Assembly: GCF_002381345.1 (NCBI RefSeq)
Contig: NZ_CP020660.1
Span: forward strand, 496,001 to 560,000
Reading direction: 5' to 3'
DNA length: 64,000 nucleotides
Source of the DNA: Candidatus Enterovibrio altilux
Lineage (GTDB): Bacteria; Pseudomonadota; Gammaproteobacteria; Enterobacterales; Vibrionaceae
Positions 8,506 to 61,562 of the stretch are shown here, piece by piece. The translations under genes and the position numbers were made by a program. The first letter of the stretch is position 1. Each line of letters opens with the position of its first letter. The notes beneath the pieces are model-generated. The model saw only the letters and a program-made list of their open reading frames with translations, did no database searches and was not told where the DNA came from.

Positions 8506-8529
8506 TAAAATTTGGTTGATTAATTTACG

Positions 8530-9765
8530 CTCTAATAGTAAATGCCAACATGATTTACTATTAGACGATCACTTGAATTTTAAGCTCACCTAACTCCAGC
8601 ATCTTATGTAACGCTTGTATCATGACGTAAGAGTCGCTAGTCTGGAAATTATGATCCATTAGGTTCAATATCCCTAACAGTAGTGTTTTGACCCGAAACA
8701 TGGCTGCCTCTGATAGGGAACAACTATGGCAATCGATTGTATTTTCTAAATCAGAGAACTAAATTTTCAATCAATACTCTAAAGAGCTAAACTCACTGAA
8801 GTATTCAAGTCTATGAGCAAACTTTGCTACAAAAAATAACTAAACAGGAATCAGTATAATCAAGCTTTAATCAATCGTGTCTCACTGATATTATGGATTG
8901 ATAAAAAACTATTCAGCTATGATATCAAGCTAAGTAGCTAATCATAGGAGATTTCGTTTACCCAGCGGCTTAGCCATTACAATGGTCCTCATGGTTAAAC
9001 GCGTATTTTCAATGACATTGCGAGGTCTGTAGAGATTCATTAATCCTCTTTATAAATTTGCTCAGCTGCCATTGTCATACCCTCATTATTTGTGCATTAG
9101 TAAGCGATCTAAAACGGTTAACGTCAGGTTCAAGATGAAAAATAAGGGAGCCATCCAGCACTTAGCCATTTCTGCTACGGGGCCAGAATCTACGGTGAAA
9201 GCGAATGGTACGTAAAAAAGCATGGCACTGATGGAAAACAGCGAGTATGGCGCAAGTTACATTTAACGGCAGATATAAAGGTACATACAACCATTGCTGA
9301 TGAATTAAGTACATCAAATATGGCTGACTGTAAAGTGCCACCTAACTTGCTCAAATAGACTCACCAAAAGTCAATGAGATATTAGCCGATGGTACTTACG
9401 ATACCGTTTGTATTAAACAAGCGGTTCCACTCATCCCGCCAAGAAAAGAAGCAACTTTTATTGAACGAAGTCATCCACGTAATTTAGCGGTCAGTTATCA
9501 GGAGTTACATAGTTCCAATCAGCATAGAACAACGAGGCATAATCACCATAAACCTTCCCTATCAGAGACGACAATGTTTCAAATCAAAAAACTACTAGGC
9601 GGGACATTGAGCTTAAGAGATCATAATGCTCAGATTAGCAAAACGTGCACCATGATAAAAGCTTCAAATAAGATGGCCAAGCTAGGTATACCTAAAATAG
9701 AAGCGATTGTTTAATAGTGAATCATGTTCGGATTTACTCTCTGAACGCACATTGGAAACCAAAGC
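8530..9765 (+). mobile_element. Chimeric IS5-family unit: inverted right-end fragment plus full-length copy
   Basis: 8530-8735 is the 3' end of the transposase in reverse orientation, ending in ctatggcaatcg. At about 8736 it joins the left end of a complete plus-strand copy that runs to about 9765. The plus copy has many stops and indels. Near its 3' end, 'KKLLGGTLSLRDHNAQISKT' is still legible, which identifies an IS903-group transposase. Confidence 0.8.
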
Positions 9766-10069
9766 TATTAATATAATACAATTTTTATCTCACCAGTATG
9801 ATAGGGAGTATTATTGATAAAGAGATTACTTAGACATCTCTTCGTTGATGAACGGTCCTATAGACGGAAACCCGCTGCTGAGAACTATATTTTGTAAGAA
9901 GTCAATTGATGTATTAATGCTTCTCTAGGATTCCCTCAGTCTAGTACCCCAATGACTATTAATTGTGGCTTTACATATTTCTGCGTCGCTTTTTCTGTGA
10001 TGTCTGATCATCTAGACCTGAAATTCCAGACTATAATACCTATATGGTAGAACATTTATCCAAATAGTT
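9766..10069. other. Non-coding stretch between IS debris and an unrecognised ORF
   Basis: No ORF, RNA gene or IS match was recognised. It may include the lost 5' part of the frame at 10070, because open stretches without homology that I can name run into it. Confidence 0.4.
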
Positions 10070-11330: not shown

Positions 11331-12442
11331 TTAGACTAGTCAGCTTCTCTAACACTTTTATTGTAGCGTTAGTTTCGATAATTTAAGCAGTGTAGTCCCT
11401 TAAGCAATGCCCCTCTCAGAAGTTTTCGATTCGAAACATTGTAGTCTTTGATAGGAAACGTTTATGGTAATCATACCTCATTTTTTTAATGCTGATTTGC
11501 ACCGTATAACTGCTGGTAATTGACCGCTAAATTACGTAGATACTCTCATTTTTAAAAATTATTCATTTTTTTAGTGGGATGAAAAGAACCGCTCGTTTAA
11601 TACGAGCGGTTTCGTAACATGCCTGGCGTCGTAAGCACCATAGCCGGATATTTCATTGATTTCTCGGCGGATCTGTTTAAGAAGTTAGATAACACTTCAT
11701 CGTCAGTCACGTTTGATGCACTTAACTCAGCAGCAATTATTTCATGCGTATTTATATCTACCGCTAAGTGAAACTTGTGCCAGACCCGCCGTTTTCCATC
11801 AATACCATGCTTTTTTACTTTTCATTATCATTCACCGTCGACTTTGAACCCCGTAGAATAATGATTAAGTTCTAGATACTTTCTTTATTTTTTGTTTTAC
11901 ACATGACATTAACCATTTGGGCTCGCTTACTAATGAATAAATAGTGAGGGCATGACAACAGCAGTTGAATAAATTTAAAAACTGCATTAATGAATCCTTG
12001 CAGACTTCTCAGTGGCATTGAAAATACGCATTTAACCACAAAATTAGTTGAAATAGCTAAGTCGCTAAATAAACGAAGTCTCTCATGATTAGCCGGCTTA
12101 GTGTGATATCGATTAGTTATTTTGTAGCGAAGATTATTCATAGGCCAGAATATTTACGTGAGCTTGGATGTTTAAAGTTTTGACTAAAAATTTAGTTTCC
12201 TGATTTAGGAAATAAACCCGATTACCATAAACGTTCCATAACAGAGACATCAATGATTTAAATAAAAAAGTTACTGATAGGAACATTGAGCCTAAGGGAA
12301 CACACAACTCAAATTAGCGAAACTTACGCGCTAATAAAAGCGTTCAATAAGCTAAGAGGGCTAAGTATGCCTAACATGAACATGCTCGCCTAATGGTACA
12401 TTATGTTGAGATTTGCTATTTAAACTCAGATTAAAAAAATCA
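11331..12442 (-). mobile_element. Chimeric IS5-family unit, decayed
   Basis: 11331-12219 is a minus-strand copy that lacks its extreme right end. Its transposase N-terminus is legible ('MNNLRYKITN', 'LRLFSDLAIS', 'VFSMPLRSLQGFI'), and a deletion removes about 80 bases near 12105. At 12219/12220 the left end joins gattaccataaacgttcc, the 3' transposase fragment in plus orientation, which runs to about 12442. Confidence 0.85.
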
Positions 12443-20198: not shown

Positions 20199-21460
20199 GG
20201 CTTTATTCCCTGATTCGAGTTCAGATAGCAGATTCCAAAATAATCAACTATTAGACAATTGCTTTCATTTTAAACAGACCTAACTTTATCGATTTTTAAC
20301 ACTTTTATCATGCCGTAGGTTTTACCAATCTGGGCATGATGATCCCTTAAGTTCAATGTCCCTCCGAGAAGTTTTTTGACTCGAACTATCGCTGTCTTTG
20401 CAAGGGAACATTAACAGCAGCGACTTTATTTCCTAAACCAGGGAACTAAATAATCAACCTATGCTCTAAACAGCTAGGCTAACTTAAATATCCAAGTCTA
20501 TGAACAGGATGCGCTACAAAACAACCAACTGAAAGCAGTATAATCAAGCTTTAATTAATCTTGGCTTGCTAACATTCTGTATTGATAAAGAAGTCATTCA
20601 ACTATGGCATCAAACTAAGTCCGATAATCATGGAAGAGCTCGTTAATTTACCAACTTGGATATTACGACTGGCCTCATGATTAAACGCATATTTTTAGTG
20701 CCGTTGAGAGGTTTATAAGGATTCATCAATTATGCATTTACACTTGCTTAACCGTCATTATCATACCCTTATTATTCATACATTAGCAAACGAACTCAAA
20801 CGGTGAACATTGCGTTGAAGACGAAAAAATAAAAGAATCATCCAGCACTTAACCATTCATTTTACAGGGTTAAAAGCCTACAGTAAAGGAGCATAACAAG
20901 TAAAAAAACATGCCACTGCCGGTAAACAGAGAGTTTAATAGAAGTTACATTTAGTGGCAGAGATAAATACGCATGTAATCATTGCTGCTGAGTTAAGTGC
21001 ACTCAATGTGACTGGTGGTGTAAGACTACCTAACAGATCCACCGAAAATCAATAAAATATCAGCAGCTAGCGCTTACGACACCAGATAATGTTACGCAAC
21101 CGTTCGTATTAAACAAGCGGTTCCACGCGTCCCACCAAGAAAAGGTATAATTTATTGGGAACGAGATCATCCGCGCAATGTAACAGTCAGTTACCAGCAG
21201 TTATACGGTTCAAATCAACACTGTAAAGCGAAGTATGGTTGCCATAAACGTTCCTATTAGAGACAGTAATGTTTCGAGCCAAGCAACTCTTCGGAGGAAA
21301 GTTGAGCCTCATGAGTTTATAATGCCTAGATTAGCGAAGCCTACGCCATGATAAAAACGTTAATAAGCTAATAGAAATAAGTCTACTTAAAATACAAGCG
21401 TTCGTCTAACAGTTAATCATATTGAAATTTGCTATCTAAGCTCAAATTAAGAATAAAGTT
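20199..21460 (+). mobile_element. Chimeric IS5-family unit, decayed
   Basis: 20199-20421 is the right end and 3' transposase in reverse orientation. It meets the left end of a complete plus-strand copy at 20422 (actttatttcctaaacc), which runs to about 21460. The same junction is seen at 8736 and 57829. The transposase frame is destroyed by many indels. Confidence 0.82.
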
Positions 21461-22996: not shown

Positions 22997-24275
22997 ACTT
23001 TGTTTCCTAATTCCAGTTCAGATAACAAATTTCAGCATAATTCACTATTAAACGAGCACTGTTATTTTAAATATACCTAATCCTATCCGCGTATTTAACT
23101 TTTTTATCACGGCGCAGATTGCACCAATCTGAGCTCTATACTCCCTTAGGCTCAATGCTCTTCCGAGTGGTTTTTTTGACTCGAAACATTACCGACTCTG
23201 ATAAGGAACGTTTATGGTAATCATATCTCGTTTTAGAATGCTGATTGGCACTCTATAATTTTTGATCACTGACAGCTAAATTACGCGAATCATCTCGTTC
23301 CTAAAAAGTTGCCCTTTTTTCGACGATATGAGTGGAACCGCTCGTTTAATACAGGCGATTTTATAACATTGTCTGGCGTCGTAAGCACCATTAGCTAATA
23401 TTCCATTTATTTTTCAGTGGGTCTCTTTGAGTAAGCTAGATAGCACTTCACCGTCAGTCACATTGAATACACTTAACTTAGCTGCGAGGATTGCATGCGC
23501 CTTTATATCTATCGCTAAATGTAACTTACGCCAGATTCACGTTTTTCATTAGTACCATGATTTTTTTTACTTTCCATTCTCTTTCACCGTAGACTTTGAG
23601 CTCTGTAGAATCAATGGTTAAGTGTTGTATACTTCCTTTATTCTTCGTCTTAAACATGACGCTAACCGTGTTTGGCCTCGCTTGCTAATGCATGAGTAGT
23701 GGGGGGCATAACAATGGCAATTGAGCAAGTTTGAAAGCAGAATTAATGAATCCTTGCAGACCTCTCAATGGCATTAAAAATGCGCATTTAACCATGAAGG
23801 CCTTCATAATATCTAAGCTACTAAATAAACTAGGTTTTCCATAACTACCCTGCTTAGTTTGATTCCATAACTAAATAGCTTCTTCATAAATTCGGAATAT
23901 TAATAAACTATGATTAATTAACGCTTGATTGGACTGCTTTCAGTAGCTCTGTTGTAACGAAAATTTTTCATCGGCCTGAATATTTAAGTGAGCCTAACTA
24001 TTTAGAGTATGGATTGATAATTTAGTTCCCTGATCTAGGAAACAAAGCCGGTTACCACAAATATTTTTTAGCAGAGACAGCAAGAGTTCGAATCAAAAAA
24101 CTACTGAGAAGGACATTGAATCTAAGGAATCGCACAACTCATATTATTGAAACCGACGCCATGACTAACGCTTTCAATAAGCTGATAAAACTAGGTATGC
24201 CTAACACAAAAGCGACTGTTTAATCGTTAATCATGTGGAGATTTGCTATCTGAACTTAAATTAGGAAACAAAGTC
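22997..24275 (-). mobile_element. Chimeric IS5-family unit, full length, decayed
   Basis: The right end starts at 22997 (actttgtttcctaattcc), and the whole minus-strand copy runs to its left end at 24049. There it joins ggttaccacaa, a plus-strand 3' transposase fragment of about 225 bases ending in a second right end (ttaggaaacaaagtc) at 24275. This is the best preserved example of the unit with two outward right ends. It separates a broken yraN from a broken yadG. Confidence 0.88.
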
Positions 24276-24289
24276 TCGATGAAAAGAAA

Positions 24290-24618
24290 AGGCTGTGTCA
24301 AAATATTGGGATTATTAACCAAAGTGAATGGATTGAAGACACGTCTATGTGGTTGCTCTTAAAAAAGCTAGGTACTAAAACATTTTGTCAAATTTGGCTC
24401 CCAACGATGACCAAATGATAACGTTAAATAACATGAAATAGCAGCAAATTGAAGACCACACTCTAGAAATATAAGTCCATAAATTCATTACGAAGAGCAC
24501 AGTTTTCTTGCAATTGACAAAGCAAAAAATTTAAGCCCATTCTGTGCATCACAAAACGAGTAGGTTTGAAACATTGATTATTAATTTATTGCAACATAGT
24601 GTGGAGACACAGGCATGA
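24290..24618 (+). pseudogene. yadG: ABC transporter ATP-binding protein YadG, C-terminal remnant
   Basis: From about 24311 the frame reads 'IINQSEWIEDTSMWLLLKKLGTKTF', resembling the C-terminal region of YadG after the ATPase domain. It stops at 24416. In another frame the end reads 'LIINLLQHSVETQA' and stops at 24616-24618, overlapping the yadH start as ATGA, as expected of a yadGH operon. The nucleotide-binding domain is absent, replaced by the IS at 22997-24275. At least one frameshift lies between the two pieces. Confidence 0.72.
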
Positions 24619-25385
24619 ATAGAGCATACTGGGTTGCCTTTAAAAGTCTACTTATCAAAGAAGTGATGCGGTTTGGACGTATTTGGGTGCAAACTTTGGT
24701 ATCACCTGCAATCACAATGGCACTGTATTTTGTGGTTTTCGGTAACTTGATTGGCAATCGTATTGGTGAAATGGGTGGCTTTAGTTATATGGCCTACATT
24801 ATACCTGGTTTGATCATGATGTCGGTGATCACTAATTCATACTCCAATGTAGCATCATCATTTTTTAATACTAAAATGCAGCGAAACATCGAAGAGTTGA
24901 TGGTCGCTCCCGTTCCAAATTACGTAATTATTGCAGGCTATATAGGTGGCGGAGTAACCAGAGGGCTAGCAGTAGGGTTTATCGTTTCTATAGTGTCGTT
25001 ATTTTTTATTGAGTTGCAGATAGTATACCTTGACGTAATTTTTGCAACAGTGTTGATGACATCAATTGTATTCTCGTTGGGCGGCCTGATCAATGCGGTG
25101 TACGCGCGCACCTTTGATGACATCAGTCTGATCCCAACATTCATTCTGACTCCGATGACTTACTTGGGTGGCGTGTTCTATTCGCTATCGTTATTGTCTG
25201 AGTTTTGGCAGGGTGTATCGAAACTAAACCCTATTATGTATATGGTAAATGCCTTCCGTTATGGCTTCTTGGGTGTATCTGACGTTAGTATTGTTACATC
25301 GTTCTCTGTACTGAGCATGCTTATTGTAAGTTTGTATTCTGTAGCGTGGTATTTGATCAGCCGTGGTATTGGTTTAAGAACATAA
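24615..25385 (+). CDS. yadH: ABC-2 type transporter permease YadH
   Basis: A 256-residue inner-membrane permease with six hydrophobic segments and ABC-2 family signatures. It is the same length as E. coli YadH and shares stretches such as MRFGRIWVQTLVSPAITM, NIEELMVAPVP and FDDISLIPTFILTPMTYLGGVFYS. The start ATG 24615 overlaps the stop of the ruined yadG and has GGAGA upstream. The partner ATPase gene is destroyed, so the permease is probably orphaned unless another ATPase serves it. It has no visible lesion yet. The transported substrate is not known. Confidence 0.93.
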   Translation: MNRAYWVAFKSLLIKEVMRFGRIWVQTLVSPAITMALYFVVFGNLIGNRIGEMGGFSYMAYIIPGLIMMSVITNSYSNVASSFFNTKMQRNIEELMVAPVPNYVIIAGYIGGGVTRGLAVGFIVSIVSLFFIELQIVYLDVIFATVLMTSIVFSLGGLINAVYARTFDDISLIPTFILTPMTYLGGVFYSLSLLSEFWQGVSKLNPIMYMVNAFRYGFLGVSDVSIVTSFSVLSMLIVSLYSVAWYLISRGIGLRT

Positions 25386-26359: not shown

Positions 26360-28732
26360 ATGAACTTGGAGCGTTCCGAGCGCATTGAAATTCCGGTCCT
26401 GCCTCTGCGCGACATGGTCGTTTATCCCCATATGGTTATCCCATTATTTGTGGGACGGGATAAATCTATCCGTTGCTTAGAAGCAGCGATGGACAATGAT
26501 AAACAGATTTTATTAGTAGCACAGAAAGATGCTGCTATCGACGACCCTTCTATTGAAGACCTTTATCAAGTAGGCACTATTGCGTCTATTTTGCAATTGT
26601 TGAAGTTGCCTGATGGAACAGTAAAAGTATTGGTGGAAGGTTTACAGCGTGTTGAAATTAAAAAATTTAGTGAAGATGATTTTTTTACTGCAGATTCACA
26701 ATACATGCAAACACCAGAAATAGATGAACGTGAGCAAGCAGCATTAGTACGCACCGCAATCAGCCAGTTTGAAAGTTTCATTAAGCTAAATAAAAAAATT
26801 CCACCAGAAGTCCTGACGTCACTAAATGGTATAGATGAAGCAGCACGTCTTGCTGATACGATTGCTGCGCACATGCCTCTTAAATTACATGATAAACAAC
26901 AAGTACTAGAAATTATCGATATTGCAGAACGATTAGAATTTCTAATGACCATAATGGAATCAGAAATTGATTTATTGCAAGTTGAAAAACGTATCCGTAG
27001 TCGCGTTAAAAAACAAATGGAAAAGAGTCAGAGAGAATATTACCTCAATGAACAAATGAAGGCAATCCAAAAAGAATTAGGGGAGCTTGATGATGCTCCT
27101 GATGAATTTGAGAGCCTGAAACTGAAAATTGAAGCATCTAAAATGCCTCAGGAAGCGAAAGAGAAAACGGAACAAGAACTTCAAAAATTAAAAATGATGT
27201 CACCGATGTCAGCAGAAGCAACTGTAGTTCGTAGTTACATTGATTGGATGGTGAGTGTACCATGGTCGAAACGCTCAAAAGTTAAAAAAAATTTAGTAAA
27301 AGCTGGAGACATTCTCAATGCGGATCATTATGGTTTGGAGCGTGTTAAAGAACGTATTCTTGAATATCTCGCCGTGCAAAATCGTGTCAATAAATTGAAA
27401 GGTCCAATACTATGTTTAGTCGGACCGCCAGGGGTAGGTAAAACCTCTTTGGGTCAGTCAATTGCATGTGCTACCGGACGTAAGTATACGCGTATGGCGT
27501 TGGGAGGCGTACGAGATGAAGCAGAAATTCGAGGACATCGTCGAACATATATTGGATCTTTGCCAGGAAAGCTTATTCAAAACATGGCTAAAGTAGGTGT
27601 AAAGAATCCACTGTTCCTCTTGGATGAAATCGACAAAATGTCTTCAGATATGCGAGGCGACCCATCTTCAGCATTGTTAGAAGTTCTTGATCCAGAACAG
27701 AACAATGCATTTAATGACCACTATCTCGAAGTGGACTATGATTTATCTGACGTTATGTTCGTAGCAACATCAAATTCAATGAATATTTCAAGCCCTTTAC
27801 TTGACCGTATGGAAGTTATTCGTTTATCAGGTTATACTGAAGACGAAAAATTAAACATCGCAAAGCAACATTTGGTTGATAAGCAAGTACAGCGTAATGG
27901 CTTGAAACCAAATGAAATAACCATTGAAGATTCAGCTATTGTTGGGATTATTCGCTACTATACGCGTGAAGCGGGAGTGCGTAGTTTAGAACGCGAAATT
28001 TCTAAACTGTGTCGTAAAGCAGTAAAAAAAATTTTACTAAATAAAAATGTTAAATTTATCACTATTAACCAAAATAATTTAAAAAATTATTTGGGTGTGC
28101 AGCGTTTTGACTTTGGCAAAGCGGATAAAAGTAATCGCATTGGTCAGGTTACCGGCCTTGCGTGGACGTCCGTAGGAGGCGACTTGCTTACCATTGAGAC
28201 TGAATCCATGCCAGGCAAAGGAAAGCTGTCACAAACTGGTTCTTTAGGTGATGTTATGCAAGAGTCAATTCAAGCAGCAATGACGGTTGTTCGTACTCGT
28301 GCAGAAAAATTAGGCATCAATAATGATTTTTACGAGCAACGTGATATCCACGTCCATGTGCCAGAAGGTGCAACACCTAAAGATGGCCCCAGTGCTGGTA
28401 TTGCAATGTGTACAGTGCTTGTTTCTAGTCTCACGGGTAATCCTGTACGAGCCGAAGTGGCCATGACAGGTGAAATTACACTCCGTGGTGAAGTATTGCC
28501 CATTGGTGGTCTGAAAGAAAAGCTATTGGCAGCACACCGAGGTGGTATTAAAACGGTCATAATTCCTAAAGACAATGAGCGTGACTTGGAAGAAATTCCC
28601 GACAATGTTAAAGCGGACCTCGATATTCATGCTGTACGTTGGATTGATGAAGTTTTGATACTCGCACTACAGAATAATCCTCTCGGAATAGAGCTTGTAA
28701 CACCACGAAAGAGTGACGTGCAGCAAAATTAA
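26360..28732 (+). CDS. lon: ATP-dependent protease Lon
   Basis: Cytoplasmic AAA+ serine protease, 790 residues (E. coli 784), that degrades misfolded and regulatory proteins. The N-terminal substrate domain begins IEIPVLPLRDMVVYPHMVIP. The ATPase has Walker A GPPGVGKT and Walker B LFLLDEID. The Ser-Lys catalytic dyad is Ser678 in PKDGPSAG and Lys721 in LKEKLLAAHRGG. It starts at ATG 26360, after a sigma-32 promoter. It is followed by a terminator and then hupB and ppiD in the conserved order, but the expected upstream neighbour clpX lies about 10 kb away in the opposite orientation. It appears intact. Confidence 0.98.
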   Translation: MNLERSERIEIPVLPLRDMVVYPHMVIPLFVGRDKSIRCLEAAMDNDKQILLVAQKDAAIDDPSIEDLYQVGTIASILQLLKLPDGTVKVLVEGLQRVEIKKFSEDDFFTADSQYMQTPEIDEREQAALVRTAISQFESFIKLNKKIPPEVLTSLNGIDEAARLADTIAAHMPLKLHDKQQVLEIIDIAERLEFLMTIMESEIDLLQVEKRIRSRVKKQMEKSQREYYLNEQMKAIQKELGELDDAPDEFESLKLKIEASKMPQEAKEKTEQELQKLKMMSPMSAEATVVRSYIDWMVSVPWSKRSKVKKNLVKAGDILNADHYGLERVKERILEYLAVQNRVNKLKGPILCLVGPPGVGKTSLGQSIACATGRKYTRMALGGVRDEAEIRGHRRTYIGSLPGKLIQNMAKVGVKNPLFLLDEIDKMSSDMRGDPSSALLEVLDPEQNNAFNDHYLEVDYDLSDVMFVATSNSMNISSPLLDRMEVIRLSGYTEDEKLNIAKQHLVDKQVQRNGLKPNEITIEDSAIVGIIRYYTREAGVRSLEREISKLCRKAVKKILLNKNVKFITINQNNLKNYLGVQRFDFGKADKSNRIGQVTGLAWTSVGGDLLTIETESMPGKGKLSQTGSLGDVMQESIQAAMTVVRTRAEKLGINNDFYEQRDIHVHVPEGATPKDGPSAGIAMCTVLVSSLTGNPVRAEVAMTGEITLRGEVLPIGGLKEKLLAAHRGGIKTVIIPKDNERDLEEIPDNVKADLDIHAVRWIDEVLILALQNNPLGIELVTPRKSDVQQN

Positions 28733-28744
28733 GCAATGTAAAAC

Positions 28745-28778
28745 GCTGACAGTTAGTAAAAGGCTTGTCAGCTTTTTT
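28745..28778 (+). terminator. Rho-independent terminator after lon
   Basis: GCTGACA (28745-28751) pairs with TGTCAGC (28766-28772), and six T residues follow directly. Confidence 0.85.
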
Positions 28779-28929
28779 GTTGAAGACTAACTTAATGGAA
28801 GCGCTGCACACCCTTAATTCATAATAGCTTCAGCGTTTTGTTAGCTCTATCTAAAAAATATAACGCATTTTTAATGCTAATCACCGCAAAAAATGGGATT
28901 TGTGGTTCGTTTGTGAAAAGGATGAAAAA

Positions 28930-29202
28930 GTGAATAAGTCGCAGTTAATTGATACAATTGCAGAAAGTGCTAATCTATCTAAAGCGTCTGCTGGTCGCGC
29001 CCTAGACGCACTATTAGATGCCATTTCTGATACTTTGAAAGACGGCGATCAAGTTGCATTGCTGGGTTTCGGTACGTTCTCAGTTCGTAGCCGTTCAGCA
29101 CGTACTGGTCGTAACCCTCAAACTGGAGCAGAAATCAGCATTCCGGCTACTAAAGTGCCTGGGTTTAAAGCTGGCAAAGCTCTGAAAGACGCGGTTAATT
29201 AA
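28930..29202 (+). CDS. hupB: DNA-binding protein HU-beta
   Basis: A 90-residue histone-like protein that bends DNA and shapes the nucleoid. I chose GTG 28930, preceded by AAGGA, because the protein then begins [18 protein letters not shown] as in HU-beta; the longer frame adds ten unrelated residues. The DNA-contacting arm [17 protein letters not shown] and the C-terminal [15 protein letters not shown] are complete. It lies between lon and ppiD as in E. coli and Vibrio, with terminators on both sides, so it is probably its own transcription unit. Confidence 0.96.
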
Positions 29203-29290
29203 TCTATTTATATCATTTTGCGCGATGTCACAGCATGTTTAATTTAAGCTGTAAAGTAAGCAATATCAGAGTATAATAAGATTCAGTCAG

Positions 29291-29330
29291 AGTATAAAAG
29301 CGTATCTCATGATGCGCTTTTATACTTTTA
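29291..29330. terminator. Terminator after hupB, possibly bidirectional
   Basis: AGTATAAAAGCG (29291-29302) pairs perfectly with CGCTTTTATACT (29315-29326). A short TTTT-AAAA tail follows. It is AT-rich but has a 12-base stem. Confidence 0.7.
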
Positions 29331-29369
29331 AAAAATAAGCGTTTAAATTAGTAGGGATGCCGGCACATC

Positions 29370-31268
29370 ATGATGGAGCGACTACGTGAAGGCGCGAATA
29401 GCCTAACGGTTAAGATAATTTTAAGCCTTATTATCTTTTCCTTTGTTTTTGCAGGGGTAGGAGGCTACTTAACTGATGGTTCCAAAAGTCCAATAGTCAA
29501 AATTGGTGATCAAAATATTAGTCATAACCAATTTGAACAGGCTTATAAAAATGAACATGCACAGATGCAAACACAGGCAGGTGACGTCTTTACTACCTTA
29601 CTGAGCGACCCAGATTATCTTGCACAATTCCGCAGTGACGTCCTTAATCGTATGGTAAATAAAGTCCTGTTAGACCAACAAGCAGACGCATTAGGCCTGC
29701 GTGTGAGCGACGAGCAAATTAAACAAACTATCCGTTCCATGCCAGCATTTCATGCTACAGTGAATAATTTTGATAATGACTTTTATTTAGCTACACTTAA
29801 ACACAATCATTTAACACCAGATCAATTCGCTAAGTATGTGCGTCAAGATCTCGTTCGTGAACAACTTATCCATGGTCTCCAAAACAGTGCGTTTGTATTA
29901 AAAAACGAACTGACATCTCTCTATAAGTTAGAAAGACAAACTCGTTCAGTGCGCACATTGTCTCTATCACCAGATGATTTCGCAGCAAAAGCTCATATCA
30001 CTGCTGAGCAAGAGCAAGATTACTATCAACAAAACCCTGCGAAGTTTATCCGTCCTAAGCAATTTAAAATTTCTTATGTTGAATTATCTGGTGATAGTAT
30101 CGCAAACCTTATGAACGTGACAGAAAGAGATGCGAAAGAATATTACGATGCTAATTTGGCATTATATAGTACTCTTGAAAAACGTAAAGTCAGCCATATT
30201 ATGATTCAAGGAGATGATAATACGGCAAAAATAAAAGCAGAAGTTGTGTTAGCAGAGTTAAATGCAGGTGCAGATTTTGCTGAGTTGGCGAGGATGCGTT
30301 CTTATGACACTTTTAGTGCAAAACAAGGTGGCCAACTTGACTGGTTTGAGACTGGTGTCATGGATTTTGCATTTGAAGAAGCCGCATTTTCACTCGTTAA
30401 AAAAGGAGATATATCAGGTGTGGTGAAATCTAGTTTTGGTTATCACATCATTAAACTGAATGATATCAAAGCGTCAGGTACAGAGCCTTTTGAAACGGTT
30501 AGAGACCAAATTATTGTGCAGTTAAAGCAACAATATGCTGCAGATAAGTTCTTTGCTCTTTCAAATGATTTGACCGAAAAAGCATTCGAAATGCCAGATA
30601 ATTTGGATGAAGCAGCATCTGCCATAAATAGCACTGTTCAACAAACGGACTTTATCTCCTTGTCTGATTTGAATGGGACGTTAGCTCACCCAAAGGTTCA
30701 AAAAGCCCTTCAATTATCAGAAAAACATGACGATGGTCTAAATTCCGATATTATTGAACTTTCTCCTGAGCATATTATTGTGGTACGTATCGATGACACT
30801 CAGCCTGAGTTAGTATTGTCATTTGATGATGCACAACCTCAAGTAATAAGCTTACTTAAACGTCAAATAGGTGAAAAAGAAGTGCATGCGTTGGCAAAGA
30901 ACTTAGTTGATGAGCTAAGAGTTGGTAATAACACGAATTTGAATGCATTGGGTTATGTGTTTAGTGATGCAACAGATGTTGGGCGTATGTCATCGGATCG
31001 TGAAGTCGTTGAATTAGCATTTACTTTACCGGCCCCTACGGGGGATACAAGTGAATACGGTATAACACGCTCTTTAAATGGTAATCTTATTATTGTTGCA
31101 TTGGACAGTGTTAAGGAACCTAAAGCCACTGATATTAGCTTAGCAAGCCAAATGGCAAATCGTATCTCACATGCTTTTGCGAGCAGTGAGCTAATGGCCA
31201 CAATCAACCAGTTAAAGCAAAATACAAAAATAACATACCCTCTTAAAACTACTGAACAATATTTATAG
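29370..31268 (+). CDS. ppiD: Periplasmic folding chaperone PpiD (SurA-like)
   Basis: A 632-residue inner-membrane-anchored chaperone of the SurA/PpiD group that acts on proteins leaving the Sec translocon. One N-terminal membrane segment (VKIILSLIIFSFVFAGVGGYL) is followed by an SurA N-like domain. A parvulin-type domain follows at about residues 265-365 (KVSHIMIQGDD, DFAELARMRSYD, GDISGVVKSSFGYHIIKL). Length is close to the E. coli protein (623). The start MMERLREGANS is the conserved family start; ATG 29373 is equally possible. It follows hupB as expected. No lesion is seen. Confidence 0.95.
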   Translation: MMERLREGANSLTVKIILSLIIFSFVFAGVGGYLTDGSKSPIVKIGDQNISHNQFEQAYKNEHAQMQTQAGDVFTTLLSDPDYLAQFRSDVLNRMVNKVLLDQQADALGLRVSDEQIKQTIRSMPAFHATVNNFDNDFYLATLKHNHLTPDQFAKYVRQDLVREQLIHGLQNSAFVLKNELTSLYKLERQTRSVRTLSLSPDDFAAKAHITAEQEQDYYQQNPAKFIRPKQFKISYVELSGDSIANLMNVTERDAKEYYDANLALYSTLEKRKVSHIMIQGDDNTAKIKAEVVLAELNAGADFAELARMRSYDTFSAKQGGQLDWFETGVMDFAFEEAAFSLVKKGDISGVVKSSFGYHIIKLNDIKASGTEPFETVRDQIIVQLKQQYAADKFFALSNDLTEKAFEMPDNLDEAASAINSTVQQTDFISLSDLNGTLAHPKVQKALQLSEKHDDGLNSDIIELSPEHIIVVRIDDTQPELVLSFDDAQPQVISLLKRQIGEKEVHALAKNLVDELRVGNNTNLNALGYVFSDATDVGRMSSDREVVELAFTLPAPTGDTSEYGITRSLNGNLIIVALDSVKEPKATDISLASQMANRISHAFASSELMATINQLKQNTKITYPLKTTEQYL

Positions 31269-34178: not shown

Positions 34179-35083
34179 GGCTTTATTTCCTAATCCGAGT
34201 TCAACTGGCAAATCCAAACATGATTAACGATTAAACAGCCGCTTTTATTTTAGGCATATCTAGTCCCGTCAGCTTATTTAACGCTTTATCATAACGTACG
34301 TTTCGTTAATCTCAGCATTGTGAGTTCTTAAACTAAATGTTCCTCTCAGGAATATTTTAATTCGAAATATTGCCATCTCTGATAGAGAACGTTTGAAACC
34401 GATAATTTCTAGTAACTGACCTCTAAATTACACGGATAACCTCGTTTTCAAAAAATTATTTTTTTTTGGTCCTGAGTGGAGCCGCTCATTTAATACGAAC
34501 GATTTCGTAGCATTGTCTGGTATCGTAAGCACCTTCAGCTAATATTTCATTGATCTTTCGGCGGGTCTGTTTGAGCAAGTTAAGTAATACTTCGCCATCA
34601 GTACCATGTTTTTTTATTTTTTATGTTTCTTCACCGCAAGCTGTGAACTCCATAAAATCAAGGTCTAAGTGATGGATGCTCCATTAATTCTTCGTCCATC
34701 CAAAATATTAGTGAGCCACGATTAATTAAAGCTTGATTATATTGCTTTCAATTATCTACTTTGTAGCGAAGGTTATTCATAGACCTGAATATTTAAGTGA
34801 GCTTAGCTGTTTAACGTATTGATTGAAAATTTAGTCCCCTTATTTAGGAAATAAAGCCGGTTACTATAAACGTTACCTAGAAGAAACAGCAATGATTTGA
34901 ACTCAAAAACTACAGGAAAGGATATTAAGCTTAAGGGATCACGCAACCCAAATTAGTGAAAGCAACGTCATGATAACAAAATTAAATAAGCTGACAAGGC
35001 TCGGTATTCCTAACACGAAAGCAATTATCTAATAATGAATCATATTAAAATTTGCCATTTGAACTCGAATTAGGAAGCAAAAC
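34179..35083 (-). mobile_element. Chimeric IS5-family unit with internal deletion
   Basis: A right end at 34179 (ggctttatttcctaatcc) leads into a minus-strand copy that has lost about 370 internal bases. Its left end stops at 34858 and joins ggttactataaacgttacc, a plus-strand 3' fragment that ends in a second right end near 35083. Confidence 0.83.
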
Positions 35084-36386: not shown

Positions 36387-37667
36387 TTATTCCGCACCAG
36401 CAACTTGATGTGTAACTGCTTCATAAATTAACAACGGTTCAGACTCACCTTTAATCACTGATTCATCTATAATTACTTTTATAATGCCCTTCGCTGAAGG
36501 CAAATCGTACATTGTATCCAACAAGACCGCTTCGACAATAGATCGAAGACCACGAGCACCTGTTTTACGATCCATCGCTTTCTTCGCAATTGCGGTCAAC
36601 GCGTTATCACGAAATTCCAGTTCTACGCCATCCAATTCCAGTAATGCAGCATACTGCTTTGTCAGTGCATTTTTAGGCTCACGCAGAATCTGCACTAGTG
36701 CATCTTCATCCAACTCGCTCAAAATTGCGCTTACTGGAAGACGGCCGATAAACTCTGGGATTAGGCCATATTTTACTAAATCTTCAGGCTCTACCTTGCT
36801 AAATAAATCACTCAACGTCGATTCTTGGTTTTTTGAGCGTACTTCAGCACCAAAACCAATCCCGCTGCCTTTCCCTACGCGTTGATCTACAACTTTATCG
36901 AGCCCTGCAAATGCGCCACCACAAATAAACAGTATTCTAGAGGTATCAACCTGCAAAAACTCTTGCTGAGGATGTTTACGTCCCCCTTGAGGTGGAACAG
37001 AAGCGATAGTACCTTCTACGAGCTTAAGCAATGCCTGCTGTACACCTTCACCGGATACATCACGCGTAATAGATGGATTATCAGATTTACGTGAAATTTT
37101 ATCAATTTCATCGATGTAAACAATGCCACGTTCAGCTTTGGCTACATTATAATCACATTTTTGAAGCAGTTTCTGGATGATATTCTCAACATCTTCACCC
37201 ACATAACCAGCTTCAGTCAATGTGGTTGCATCAGCCATAGTGAATGGCACATCTAGAAAACGCGCTAATGTCTCTGCAAGCAGTGTTTTGCCGCTACCCG
37301 TAGGTCCGATCAGCAAAATATTACTCTTGCCAAGCTCAATACCATCCACATTCGTGTCACTCTTTTTAAGGCGTTTATAGTGATTATATACTGCTACAGA
37401 TAACACTTTCTTAGCTTTATCTTGACCAACTACGTAATCATCAAGATGTGCACGAATTTCAATTGGTGTTGGAAGTTCATTACTGTCGCGCTTCAACATG
37501 ACCTCTTTTATTTCTTCACGAATGATGTCGTTACATAGGTCAACACATTCATCGCAGATATAAACAGAAGGTCCAGCAATTAACTTGCGTACTTCATGCT
37601 GGCTTTTGCCGCAGAAAGAGCAGTACAGCAACTTACCGCTGCCACCGTCTTTTCGCTTGTCTGTCAT
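36387..37667 (-). CDS. clpX: ClpX, ATPase subunit of ClpXP
   Basis: AAA+ unfoldase that feeds tagged proteins into ClpP, 426 residues. The N-terminal zinc domain has CSFCGK and ICDECVDLC. Walker A is GPTGSGKT, and Walker B is VYIDEIDK. The pore loop GYVGED and the IGF-type ClpP-binding loop ([10 protein letters not shown]) are present. ATG 37667 is preceded by AAAGAGG. clpP lies 138 bases upstream, but lon no longer follows; an IS block does. A pairing of AAGGCC with GGCCTT near 36293-36327 may be a weak terminator. It appears intact. Confidence 0.97.
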
Positions 37668-37805
37668 TCGCTAACCTCTTTAGACTTTTACCCATGCTTG
37701 CCATGATCTGAGTCTACATCAACTCTACGAAAATTTCCGGAACAATAAAAATTCGACTGTTATGCAACACATAGCTCGGGCACTTAGCTATCTCAGAATT
37801 AAGAA

Positions 37806-38429
37806 TCAATCACGTTTATCTAAAATTGAATCAACCAGACCATAATCCACAGCATCTTGTGCAGCCATGAAGTTGTCACGATCAGTATCACGCTCAATAA
37901 GTTCAAGTAGTTGCCCAGTATGCTTAGCTAGCAGTATATTCAGTTTTTGTTTGATAGTTAAAATCTCCTTCGCATGAATTTGAATATCTGAGGCTTGGCC
38001 CTGAAAACCACCAAGGGGCTGGTGAATCATTACACGAGAGTTTGGTAAGCAATAACGCTTACCTTTAGCACCACCTGCCAATAAAAAAGCCCCCATTGAA
38101 CAACTTTGTCCCATACATACCGTGCTCACCTTTGGCTTAATATATTGCATCGTGTCATAAATCGACATACCTGCAGTTACTGAACCACCGGGGGAGTTAA
38201 TATACAGGAAGATGTCTTTTTCTGGATTTTCTGATTCAAGAAATAGCAGCTGTGCAACCACTAAATTAGCTGTATAATCTTCTATTTCTCCTGTCAAAAA
38301 AATCACACGCTCTTTCAGCAAACGGGAATAAATATCATAAGAACGTTCACCGCGGGCGGTTTGCTCAACTACCATTGGCACTAGTGCATCCATGATACAA
38401 GACATTCTATTTTTTTCTTGAAAGCTCAT
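37806..38429 (-). CDS. clpP: ATP-dependent Clp protease proteolytic subunit
   Basis: Serine protease of 207 residues that forms the tetradecameric chamber used with ClpX. The catalytic triad is complete: Ser111 in [11 protein letters not shown], His136 in VMIHQPLGG and Asp185 in ERDTDRDNF. The Ser-Cys before the catalytic Ser replaces the common Ala-Ala, which is unusual but leaves the nucleophile in place. ATG 38429 has AGGGAAAGAAG upstream. It lies 113 bases downstream of tig and 138 upstream of clpX, the conserved order. Confidence 0.97.
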
Positions 38430-38447
38430 AGTCTTCTTTCCCTAAAA

Positions 38448-38475
38448 TAAATGGCCCGAATGAATTAACTTCATG
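38448..38475 (-). promoter_or_regulatory. Possible sigma-32 promoter of clpP
   Basis: Read on the minus strand, CATGAA and GCCATTTA are spaced by 14 bases, resembling the CTTGAA / CCCCATTTA heat-shock consensus. They lie about 20-45 bases before the clpP start. The -10 match is only partial. Confidence 0.35.
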
Positions 38476-38542
38476 CGGACCATTATTATTAGAAGAGTGG
38501 ATTCTAAGTCAATTGTCCACTCAATAATTTTAGCATTTAAGC

Positions 38543-39838
38543 TTAAGCATGGTTCATAAATTTAGCAAAAACTTGCTTTTTTTCAGAAACTTGTGATTTG
38601 GCTAGCAATGCATCGATTGCTTGCTCTTCTAGAACTATGTTACGCATATTTTTCATCAAATACAGGTCTTTTTCGTAGTAAGAAATAACTTTAGTTGGAT
38701 CTTCATATTCAGATGCTATATCTGTAATCAGTGCTAGCACCCGATTTTCATCAACTTTTAGTGCCTCAGACTCAATTACTTCACCAAGCAGAAGGCCAAT
38801 AACAACACGACGTTTAGCTTGTTCTTCAAATAATTCACATGGTAATTCTGGTGTATTTTCAGTTTTGCTATCAAAAGACTGAATTGCCTGTTGACGCAAA
38901 ACACTAACTTCTTGATCAATCAGCACAGAAGGTACGTCTATTTTATTTTGCTCAACTAAACCATCAATTACTTGCTCTTTTATATTATTTTTAACAGCTT
39001 GTATTAATGCGCGTTCCATGTTTTTACGCACTTCCTTTTTCATGCCGTCAAGACCACCTTTTTGCACACCAAAATGCATTACAAACTCATCAGTAAGTTC
39101 AGGGAGGGTTCGCGTTTCAATTTTATTCAGTTTAATATCAAATTTAGCTGTTCTACCTTTCAGTGTTTCAGTGTGATAATCTTTTGGGAAGTTCACTTCC
39201 AGCATAAATTTTTCACCTACTTTTTTACCAACTATACCATCTTCAAAATCTGAAACCATGCGACCTTGGCCCATAACTAAAACAAACCCTTCCGCTTGAT
39301 CGCCTCTGAATCCTTCATCATCAATAGAGCCGATAAAATCAATTGTTACACGACTATTAGCTTCAGCTACTCCGTCAACGTCAGCCCAAGAAGCTTGCTG
39401 CTTACGCAAAGTTTCGATCATCTCAGCAACATCTTCGTCACTCACTGTTACTTGTGGCTTAACAACTTCAATTTTATTCAAATTTTTTAATGAAATTTTT
39501 GGATGAATTTCAAAGGAAGCTTTGAAGACAAGGTCTTTGCCTTCTTCAATATCTACTGGTGTGAATATTGGTACGCCTGCTAGGTTTACTTTCTCTTTTA
39601 TTATTGCTTCAATGAAATAACGCTGCATTACTTCACTCATCATATCATTACGTACAGCACTACCATACATACGTGAGACCATCTTCAAAGGCACTTTACC
39701 TTTACGAAACCCATTGAAACGATGATTTTTAGCAATATTACGCAATTCAGTAGCCACTGCACCTTCAATGCTTGCTGCTGGAACAGTAATTGTTAGGTGA
39801 CGCTCTAGGCTTTTTGTAGTTCCAACGGTAACTTGCAT
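38543..39838 (-). CDS. tig: Trigger factor
   Basis: Ribosome-associated chaperone and peptidyl-prolyl isomerase, 431 residues (E. coli 432). The ribosome-binding signature is GFRKGKVPLKMV at about residues 44-55. The FKBP-type domain follows (about 150-245; FIGSIDDEGFRGDQAEGF, LVMGQGRMVSDFEDGIVGKKVGE). The helical C-terminal arm completes the protein. ATG 39838 has TTGAGG upstream. It heads the tig-clpP-clpX block on the minus strand. It appears intact. Confidence 0.97.
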   Translation of the reverse strand: MQVTVGTTKSLERHLTITVPAASIEGAVATELRNIAKNHRFNGFRKGKVPLKMVSRMYGSAVRNDMMSEVMQRYFIEAIIKEKVNLAGVPIFTPVDIEEGKDLVFKASFEIHPKISLKNLNKIEVVKPQVTVSDEDVAEMIETLRKQQASWADVDGVAEANSRVTIDFIGSIDDEGFRGDQAEGFVLVMGQGRMVSDFEDGIVGKKVGEKFMLEVNFPKDYHTETLKGRTAKFDIKLNKIETRTLPELTDEFVMHFGVQKGGLDGMKKEVRKNMERALIQAVKNNIKEQVIDGLVEQNKIDVPSVLIDQEVSVLRQQAIQSFDSKTENTPELPCELFEEQAKRRVVIGLLLGEVIESEALKVDENRVLALITDIASEYEDPTKVISYYEKDLYLMKNMRNIVLEEQAIDALLAKSQVSEKKQVFAKFMNHA

Positions 39839-47977: not shown

Positions 47978-48318
47978 GACTTTGTTTCCTAAATCAGGGA
48001 ACTAAATTATCAATCTACGCACTAAACAGCTAGGCTCATTTTGATATTCAGATTTATGAACAAGCTTCTCTACAAAACAACTAATTGGAAGTAATATAAT
48101 CAAGCTTTAATCAATAGTGACTCACTAATATTCTAGGTTCAGGCAGAAGCCATTCAGCTACGGAATCAAAACTAAGCCTGGTAATCATGGGAGACCCCGT
48201 TTATTTAGCCACTTATCCAAGACACCGGCCCTTATGGTTAAACGTGTATTTTCAAGGCCGTTAAGAGATCTGCAAGGGTTCATTAATTCTGTTTTTCAAC
48301 TGGCTCAACTACCGTATC
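47978..48318 (+). mobile_element. IS5-family 5' fragment
   Basis: A left end (gactttgtttcctaaatc) and about 340 bases of 5' transposase in plus orientation. It stops where a minus-strand copy begins. Confidence 0.8.
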
Positions 48319-49471
48319 ATGAAATAAGCCTCGCTAATCTAAACGTAATGATTTCTTCAACTTAATGTCACTCCCAGTAATTATTTGACTCGAAACATTC
48401 CCGTCTCTGATAGGGAACGCTTATGGTAACCATACTCGTTTTCCAATGCTAATTGGAACCGTATAATTTCTGATAACTGATCGCTAAATTACGCGGATAA
48501 CCTCGTTCCCCAAAAAGTTGTTTTTTTCTTGATAGGATGAGTGGAACCGCTCGTTTAATACGAACGGTTCCGTAATATTATCTGATATCACAGGCACCTT
48601 CGGCTGATATCTCATTGATTTTCGATAATCTGTTTGAATAAGCCAGGTAGTTTTTCACCGTTAGTCACATTTAACGCACTTAGCTCAGCAGCAATGATTT
48701 CATGCGTATTTATATCTGTGCTAAATACAACTTGCTCCGGGTTCTCAGTTTTCCATCAATATCATGCTTTTTTGCTTTCTATTCCCCTTCACCGTAAACT
48801 GTTAATCCCGTAAAATTAATGGCTAAGTGCTGTATATTTCCTTTATTCTTCGCCTTGAACGTGACGTTAATCGTTTTAGTTCGCTTACTAATGTGTGAAT
48901 AGTGAAAGCATAACAATGGCAGTTAAGCCAGTTTGAAAAGAGAATCCATGAATCCTTGCAGACCTCCCAATGGCATTGAAAACACGCATTGAACCATGAG
49001 GGCCCGCGTGACGGCTAAGTCGCTCAATAAACGAGGACTCCCATGATTACCCTGCTTAATTTTATTCCATCGTTGAATAGCTTCATCTTCAATCCAAAAT
49101 GTTAGTTAGCCATGATTGATTAAAGTGTGCTTATACTGCTTTCAGTTAGTTATTTTGTAACGAAGATTATTCATAGATCTGAATATTTAAGTAAGCCTGA
49201 CTGTTTATAATGTTGATTGAAAATTTAGTTCCCTTATTTAAAAACTAAAACTAGTTACCATAAACCTTTCCTAGCAGAAACAACTATGGTTCAAATTAAA
49301 AAAATTACTTGGAGGGACATTGAGTTTAAGAGATCGTAATGCTCAGATTAGCGAGATTTACGACATGGTAAGAGCGTTAAATAAGCTTAGGTATGCCTAA
49401 AACAAAAGCGATTGTTTAACCGTTAATCATGTTAGGATTTACTATCTGAACTAGGATTAGGAAACACAGCC
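48319..49471 (-). mobile_element. Chimeric IS5-family unit, decayed
   Basis: A minus-strand copy without its extreme right end runs from 48319 to its left end near 49252. It then joins agttaccataaacctttcc, a plus-strand 3' fragment that ends with a right end (ggattaggaaacacagcc) at 49471. Confidence 0.83.
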
Positions 49472-57634: not shown

Positions 57635-57640
57635 ATTCAC

Positions 57641-58783
57641 CAACATGATTCACTATTAGACAATTACTTTCGTTTTAGAAATGTCTAGTCCTGTCAGCTT
57701 ATTTAACGCTTTTATCATGCGTAGGTTTCACTAATCTTAGCAGTGTGATCCCTTGGACTCAATGTCTATCCCCGTAGTTTTTTGACTCGAACCATTGCTT
57801 TCTCTGCTAGGGAACGTTTATGGTAACCAGCTTTATTTCCTAAATAAGAGAACTAAGTTTTTAATCAACACTCTAAACAGCTAACTCACTTCAATATTCA
57901 GGCCTATGAACAATCTTCGCTACAAAACAACTAACTAGAAGCGGTATAATCAAGCTTTAATCAATCGTAGCTAACTAACATTATGGATTGATGGAAAAGC
58001 TATTCCACTATGAAATCACACTAAGCAGAGGAATTACGGGAGACCTCATTTATTTAGCAACTTAGTCATTACGATGGCCCTTACTTTTCATGCATTAGCA
58101 AACGAGCCAAAACAGTTAACGTCACATTCAAAACGAAAAGTAAAGAAAGCGTCCAGTACTCAGCCATTGATTTAACAAGGTTCAAAATCTACGGTGAAGA
58201 AAAATGAAAAGTAAAACAGTATAGTACTGATGGGAAACGACTAGTCTGGCACAAATTACATTTAGCGGTAGATATAAATACGCATGAAATCATTTCTGCT
58301 GAGTTAAGTACATTAAATGTGACTGACGGTGAAGTGCTACCTAACTTACTCAAGCAGACACGCCGAAAAATCAATGAAATATCAACCGATAGTGCTTATG
58401 ACACCAGATAATGTTACGAAACCGTTTGCATAAAAAGAGAGGTTCCACTCATACCACCAAAAAAAGGAGCAATTTTTGAGGAACGAGATCGTCCACGGAA
58501 TTTAACGATCAGTTACCAGAAGTTATACGGTTCCAATCAGCGTTGTAAAACGAGGCATGATTACCATCAACGTTCCCTATCAGAGACGGCCATGTGTCGA
58601 TTTAACAAAATTACTCGGAGGGACATTGAGTTTAAGAGATCATAATGCTCAGATTAGCGAACCTTACGCATGGTAAAAACATAAAATAAGCCAATGAAAC
58701 TAGGTATTCTTAAAATAAAAACAATTGTTTAATCATGAATTATGTGCAATATGCTATCTGAACTCAGATTAGGAAGCAAAACC
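57641..58783 (+). mobile_element. Chimeric IS5-family unit, decayed
   Basis: 57641-57828 is an inverted 3' fragment that ends exactly in ggaacgtttatggtaacc. It then joins agctttatttcctaaat, the left end of a plus-strand copy that runs to 58783. The plus copy lacks about 110 bases near 58085. This is the clearest plus-orientation example of the junction. Confidence 0.87.
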
Positions 58784-60405: not shown

Positions 60406-61315
60406 GACTTTATTTACTCAATAAGGGAACTAAATTACTAATCTACGCTCTAAACAGCGAGGCTCATTTAAATATTAACGCTTATGGCAAGCCTCGCTGT
60501 CAAACAATTAACAGGAGGTAGTGTAATCAAATGTAAATCAATCGTGACTCACTCACCTTCTGATTGATGAAGAAGCTATTCGGATTTGGAATCAAACTGA
60601 GCAGAAAAATCATAAAAAACTTTATTTATCTAGCAACTTAACGATGACGGCAGTTTTCATGATTCAACACGTATTTTCAATGCCATTGAGAGGTCTGCAA
60701 GGATTCCTTAATTCTGTTTGCAAATGTGCTTAACTGCCATTGTCATACTCTCACTACTCATGCTTTAACAACGTGCGAGCCAAAACAGTGAACGTCACGT
60801 TCAAAACGAAGAATAAAGGCACTAGCCAGCACTTAGCTATTAATTCCACGGAGATAAAAATATGTATAAAATCATTCCTGTTGAATTAAGAGCATCAAAT
60901 GTGACTTATGGTAAAGTACTATCTAACTTGCTCAAACAAACCCGCCGAAGAATCAATGAATAATATTATACAACCGTTAGTATTAAACGAACGGTTCCAC
61001 TCATACCACTAAGATAGAAGGGCAACTTGTTGAAAATGAGACCATCCACGTAAACGAGTGGTCAGTTACCAAAAATTATACGGTTCAAATCAGCATTGGA
61101 AAACAGGATATGACTACAATCAACACTCCTTATCAGAGACATCAATGTTTAAAATTAAAAATTTTTCGGAGGCATGTTGAACTTAAGGACTCACAACACT
61201 CAGATTAGCAAAACCCAGTCATTACAAAAGTACTAAATAAGCTAATCAGGTCAGGTATGCCTAAATAGTGAGTCATGATAAGATTTACTATCTGAATCTA
61301 CATTAAAAAACAAAT
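60406..61315 (+). mobile_element. IS5-family element, decayed
   Basis: A left end (gactttatttactcaataag) at 60406 and a right end near 61315, with a deletion of about 110 bases near 60858. It has no inverted 3' fragment. Confidence 0.78.
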
Positions 61316-61562
61316 TTAGCTAAATCATTAAATAAACTAATTTTTTACAAATATCCTGTTTAATGTGATTGCATAGCTGAACGGCTTCTGCATCAATCCA
61401 TAACATTAGTAAGCCACAATTTATTAAAACTTGATTATACTGCTTCAGTTAGTTGTGTTGTAGTGACGCTTGTCCATAAACAACATATATTTCAGTTAAT
61501 TTAACTGTTTAGAATGTATGTAGATTACTAATTTAGTTCTTTGATTTAAGGAATAAAGCTGC
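61316..61562 (-). mobile_element. IS5-family left-end fragment
   Basis: About 245 bases of 5' transposase and left end in minus orientation, ending ttaaggaataaagc. Confidence 0.72.

Follow-up and report, generated by a model that had tools for sequence, protein, structure and literature searches.

The locus at positions 22997-24275 raises the question of how an IS copy came to be bounded by two right ends, and whether the resulting unit moved as a whole. IS elements are usually regarded as fixed left-right units. Here, a complete, decayed inner IS on the minus strand (22997-24049; right end at 22997, left end at 24049; profile match to IS positions 1-1050, 733 bits) is joined to an outer arm on the plus strand (24050-24275; profile match to positions 824-1050), which consists of an inverted 3' transposase fragment and a second right end. 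The locus lies in a window of 64,000 nt, the whole stretch of DNA that was analysed (positions 496001-560000 of contig 1), in a genome of 2,143,356 bases in 4 contigs (N50 1,604,691).

The genome matches that published for "Candidatus Enterovibrio luxaltus" CC26, which lives as a symbiont in the light organ of the anglerfish Cryptopsaras couesii (PMC6020299). It was reported to hold 672 IS5-family transposase genes, of which 0 were complete (Hendry et al. 2018, PMC6020299). That paper counts transposase fragments, with inverted repeats missing or genes truncated (PMC6020299), and the same genome and the same 672 dead transposases are dealt with here. We sampled the window plus 20 spaced 20-kb stretches (464 kb in total, 22% of the genome), together with 30 single loci. 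A profile search showed that copies of this one IS occupy about 8 to 44% of each sampled stretch and about a quarter of the 464 kb overall.

Structure of the chimeric unit and its IS family

The consensus chimera was 1277 bp long: an inverted right arm of 226 bp leads without a gap into a complete IS of 1051 bp (inverted IS positions 1051-826, then complete IS positions 1-1051). This structure bears out the original prediction of a unit with two outward right ends. The inner 1051-bp IS has the right end GGCTTTGTTTCCTAATTC, and the internal left end of the chimera is GGCTTTATTTCC. The consensus junction reads CGTTTATGGTAACC up to the boundary and GGCTTTATTTCCTAAAT beyond it. In the IS body the uninterrupted site is TATGGTTACCATAAACG, at IS position 826, and the junction site ATGGTTACCAT is a near-palindrome.

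Sequence features assign the IS to the IS903 group of the IS5 family. The transposase consensus matches PF13737 (2e-40) and PF01609 (2e-26), which is a DDE transposase of the DDE_Tnp_1 type; its catalytic residues are D120, D193 and E258, and YHKRSLSETAMFRVK agrees with the Y(2)R(3)E(6)K signature. The size of about 1.05 kb and the short terminal inverted repeats starting GGCTTTGTT are those of the IS903 group. ISVa2-like elements of Vibrio and Shewanella (IS903 group, IS5 family) likewise have about 1.05 kb, GGCTTTGTT termini and a DDE transposase, and several plasmid search matches carry the ISVa2 family annotation. These ordinary elements end in one left and one right terminus, whereas the chimera has two right ends. 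When a 382-nt junction query was searched against plasmids, none of 72,556 records gave coverage of at least 80%, and no junction-spanning match was found among 60 related genomes.

Two known kinds of element were considered and ruled out. The unit is not a composite transposon, as it holds one complete IS and a 226-bp arm without cargo; nor is it a MITE, as its transposase gene is full-length, even if usually interrupted by an in-frame UGA.

Recurrence of the junction

All eight junctions named in the original prediction were recovered by an unbiased profile search: 2908, 12219, 24049, 34858 and about 49252 on the minus strand, and about 8736, 20422 and 57829 on the plus strand. The corresponding minus-strand units lie at 1892-2921 (the 2908 junction, with only a stub of the outer arm, which had been overlooked), 11332-12433 (inner IS truncated 3'), 34179-35082 (with internal deletions) and 48296-49471. 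The plus-strand units lie at 8509-9766 (outer arm 8509-8735, inner IS up to 9766), 57640-58781 (with a small internal deletion) and 20199-21453. In the window, GGTTACCATAAACG occurred 15 times with at most 2 mismatches, against 0.28 expected.

A count of left-end flanks had also been proposed. A left end was scored as chimeric if at least 10 of the 17 bases outside its terminus matched the inverted transposase fragment. These match scores were bimodal, and the non-chimeric left ends peaked separately at 5-8/17. In the 464 kb, 39 of 104 left ends were fused to one and the same point of an inverted 3' transposase fragment; 37 of them had the boundary at offset 0 and 2 at offset 1. No other IS-fragment junction recurred more than about 5 times in the same sample. 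A whole-genome search with the junction sequence gave at least 40 junction-spanning matches, spread over all 4 contigs, and extrapolation by proportion from the 464-kb sample leads to an estimate of some 180 chimeric left ends genome-wide. The suggestion that the chimera had spread "perhaps more than the parent" was not supported, since 38-40 chimeric left ends stood against 63-64 plain ones in the sample. The chimeric share of the left ends of this IS family is roughly 40%.

Other joins were also present. At IS position ~242, an IS left fragment (1-242) abuts an inverted right end, so that both outward ends are left ends. The sample contained five such chimeras: 60406-61560 in the window (complete; no strand assigned), L038:8307, L036:13201, L049:7645 and L034:9683. 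A second, rare right-right junction, near IS position 920, was seen twice (L034:10542 and L007:310). Inverted nesting thus gave both right-right and left-left kinds, and just one right-right unit became common. Separately, the same internal stretch, bounded by two TTAGCCATT direct repeats (IS positions ~242 and ~425), had been deleted at L041:9257, L032:8962 and L046:4810.

Founding of the chimera

Our reading is that the chimera is very probably a two-right-ended derivative of an IS903-group element, which would have been founded by insertion of one IS into another and moved by its right-right pair. On one side the join falls at the precise left terminus of a copy, and on the other at a site within a second copy; such a combination argues that the transposase made it. 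Template switching or hairpin repair at the palindrome, by which a right arm would have been copied onto a left end, would also place the junction at a near-palindrome. This route is very unlikely for the founder, as the other side of the join is the exact terminal base, a choice expected of a transposase but not of a replication accident. In addition, the two right arms of the consensus chimera are identical at 205 of 226 positions and differ at 21, though part of these differences arose after the founder.

The original nested locus was not found among the matches listed and the sampled loci. One apparent match that seemed to span it, L040, turned out to be an ordinary copy.

Alleles shared by the chimeras

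The outer arms carry private alleles, 847G, 862G, 911C and 912A, which are rare both in ordinary right arms and in the chimera's own inner right arm. Outer arms had 847G in 53 cases, 911C in 38 and 912A in 40, where ordinary arms have T, A and T; 913A and 855A were likewise enriched. The inner left halves of chimeras have 7A, 32T, 39A, 42A and 58C, where G, A, T, G and T are more frequent in ordinary copies. For example, 39A was found in 57/70 chimeric inner left halves versus 5/74 ordinary ones, and 32T in 61/70 versus 11/74. In the tree of IS bodies, the label changed between chimera and ordinary 11 times, compared with a mean of 28.6 after shuffling, and a single clade of 59 contained 52 of the 58 chimeras; support values were modest, as expected at such decay.

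It had been proposed that one IS copy inserted into another at the palindrome, and that the resulting chimera then spread as a unit. The private alleles on both sides uphold this proposal. The chimera goes back to essentially a single origin and dispersed as a whole; repeated independent insertion is excluded as the main source, because insertions into ordinary copies would carry ordinary alleles. A model of many independent IS insertions into pre-existing copies, with the palindrome as a hot spot and no transposition of the unit, is very unlikely, even though the ATGGTTACCAT site is near-palindromic and one locus (L044:14655) has G at terminal position 7 and, on either side of the junction, alleles that are mostly ordinary. 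Besides the atypical alleles of outer arms and inner left ends, it is opposed by the scarcity of nested halves of any kind, with few clean cases, and by the lack of any convincing case among the copies in which the outer IS's left half continues beyond the inner right end.

The alleles separate basal and derived chimera subfamilies. The plus-strand unit at 20199-21453 of the window and others have derived alleles in part on both sides: the outer alleles are CCCppp and the inner left end is mostly ordinary, but with 7A. These partly derived units fit a basal subfamily, with the derived one later. In a few units (window 20424, L037:14964 and L044:14655) the left-end alleles are mostly ordinary; such units may belong to the basal subfamily or be recombinants, and one may have arisen independently.

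Judged by divergence, the chimera is younger than the ordinary copies. The median divergence from their own consensus was 0.144 for chimeras and 0.189 for ordinary copies (p = 7e-7), the latter value being inflated because the ordinary set is itself mixed. The mean pairwise identity was 0.757 for chimeras and 0.708 for ordinary copies.

Target duplications and flanking genes

This IS group makes 9-bp target duplications, as was confirmed in intact relatives; in the intact Vibrio relatives, a perfect 9-bp duplication was found at just 12 of about 60 copies. The original prediction had looked to 9-base duplications around the whole unit to tell unit spread from independent insertion. None was found in 32 complete chimeras, and none in 28 complete ordinary copies. 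Since the ordinary copies lack them as well, duplications do not discriminate between independent insertion and unit spread, and without them around the units the insertion step of the unit is not directly seen. For the same 32 chimeric and 28 ordinary copies, no signal was obtained for target duplications of 2-12 bp at the termini, or for 9-bp matches, direct and inverted, at every nearby offset. Given about 16% decay per copy, we estimate that surviving duplications would have roughly 70% identity. Their absence is probably due to IS-linked rearrangement that separated the flanks, as suggested by gene order. The genes tig-clpP-clpX-lon-hupB-ppiD are colinear in two Enterovibrio relatives. 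In CC26, IS copies lie at a break that splits them into two blocks of opposite orientation, tig-clpP-clpX being inverted with respect to lon-hupB-ppiD (window 26360-31268 and 36387-39838).

The yadG case is similar. The outer right end at 24275 directly abuts codon ~195 of yadG, whose decayed 3' remnant (24274-24618, plus strand) was identified by tblastn and alignment to the two Enterovibrio genomes, and intact yadH follows at 24615-25385. yadG and yadH are intact neighbours in both relatives, a 5.5-Mb Enterovibrio genome of free-living size and a reduced 2.6-Mb genome of the genus. The outer terminus of the unit is therefore real: it falls within a host gene that has no relation to the founding IS. 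At the opposite end of the unit, the first two thirds of the interrupted yadG are missing.

An intact yadG was observed elsewhere, at contig 1:124671-125576 (L177), between another chimeric unit immediately upstream and a further IS copy immediately downstream. Both yadG sites, the intact gene and the 3' remnant in the window, directly adjoin the outer end of a chimeric unit. At L042:139-1409, about 1.27 kb of host DNA lies between two right-arm parts with consecutive positions; its 256-aa ORF looks like a candidate RelA/SpoT-domain protein.

Rearrangement at IS copies is thus evident, both from the tig-clpP-clpX inversion and from a yadG that is intact elsewhere and partial here, and could have multiplied the units by segmental duplication or recombination between copies instead of transposition. 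We regard this as highly improbable, because the flanks of the 32 complete units are almost all unrelated outside IS sequence (the sole non-IS match among 64 flanks was one 70-bp pair) and the break in the host gene at the outer end coincides exactly with the IS terminus. An assembly artefact is a negligible explanation: the CC26 genome is a repeat-filled Discovar de novo assembly (PMC6020299), but the complete copies have about 76% mean pairwise identity, with nearest neighbours at most 83%, so that they are not confusable in assembly, and an artefact would not yield dozens of occurrences of a single exact junction, marked by alleles of its own.

A proposed mechanism of founding and spread

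When an inverted copy lies inside another copy, the inner and outer right ends already face outward, and the segment between them can move. In our favoured reading of IS-in-IS insertion and right-right movement, the transposase would have inserted the left end of one copy at position 826 (ATGGTTACCAT) of another, inverted copy, by simple nesting or by an adjacent rearrangement. After the insertion, a pair of outward-facing right ends would have stood 1277 bp apart and formed a valid transposon that needed no further change, and the transposase would then have mobilised this 1277-bp unit through its right-right pair. The units may often have moved in trans, the new right end taking over from a weakened left end. 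The IS family would have died later, and recombination or deletion at the copies would have parted their flanks.

Two features may help to explain why the unit did well. At terminal position 7, G is almost invariant in intact relatives. The internal left end of the chimera has A in 61 of 69 cases and G in 7, the right ends have G 34/A 15 and G 27/A 8, and about half of the ordinary left ends here have A. Given its presence in ordinary left ends, the A of the internal left end may be incidental; an internal left end is also free to drift. The second feature is codon 245, ahead of the catalytic Glu, which is TGG in relatives; in the chimeras it is TGA in 20, TGG in 8 and TAG in 1. With p = 2e-5 against a TGG ancestor, codon 245 was in all likelihood UGA in the ancestor of most chimeras. 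Most units would then have had no full transposase and would have relied on other copies. Most IS copies also have TGA at this codon, compared with TGG in the intact relatives. The IS family may have spread mostly in trans.

A further, tentative possibility, which we consider somewhat doubtful, is end replacement. An IS lineage with a left end weakened by A7 and a transposase usually broken by UGA would have gained a second right end by self-insertion. Moving in trans, the right-right unit would have reached about 180 copies and far outnumbered the two-left-ended chimera, which had the same mode of formation. If true, one genome would record right-right pairing beating left-left. Two right ends can pair and transpose or circularise in laboratory donors of Tn7, VchCAST and IS2, while donors with two left ends are inactive or severely reduced for Tn7 and VchCAST (PMC10201428, PMC3299598). 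Those right-right donors are man-made and use unrelated transposases, whereas the chimera here is natural and has spread.

Significance

The 672 dead IS5 transposases of this genome were already published (PMC6020299), and the chimera is new here: it is unmentioned in the main text of the CC26 genome paper (PMC6020299), and we found no prior account of a two-right-ended IS chimera in the open literature. In conclusion, our results suggested that insertion of one IS into another made a new mobile unit with duplicated right ends, and that in IS-saturated genomes nesting itself can generate new transposons. With its right-right, left-left and left-right end pairs, the family lends itself to a natural comparison. 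In reduced symbiont genomes, annotating IS by the transposase gene alone overlooks the true mobile unit.
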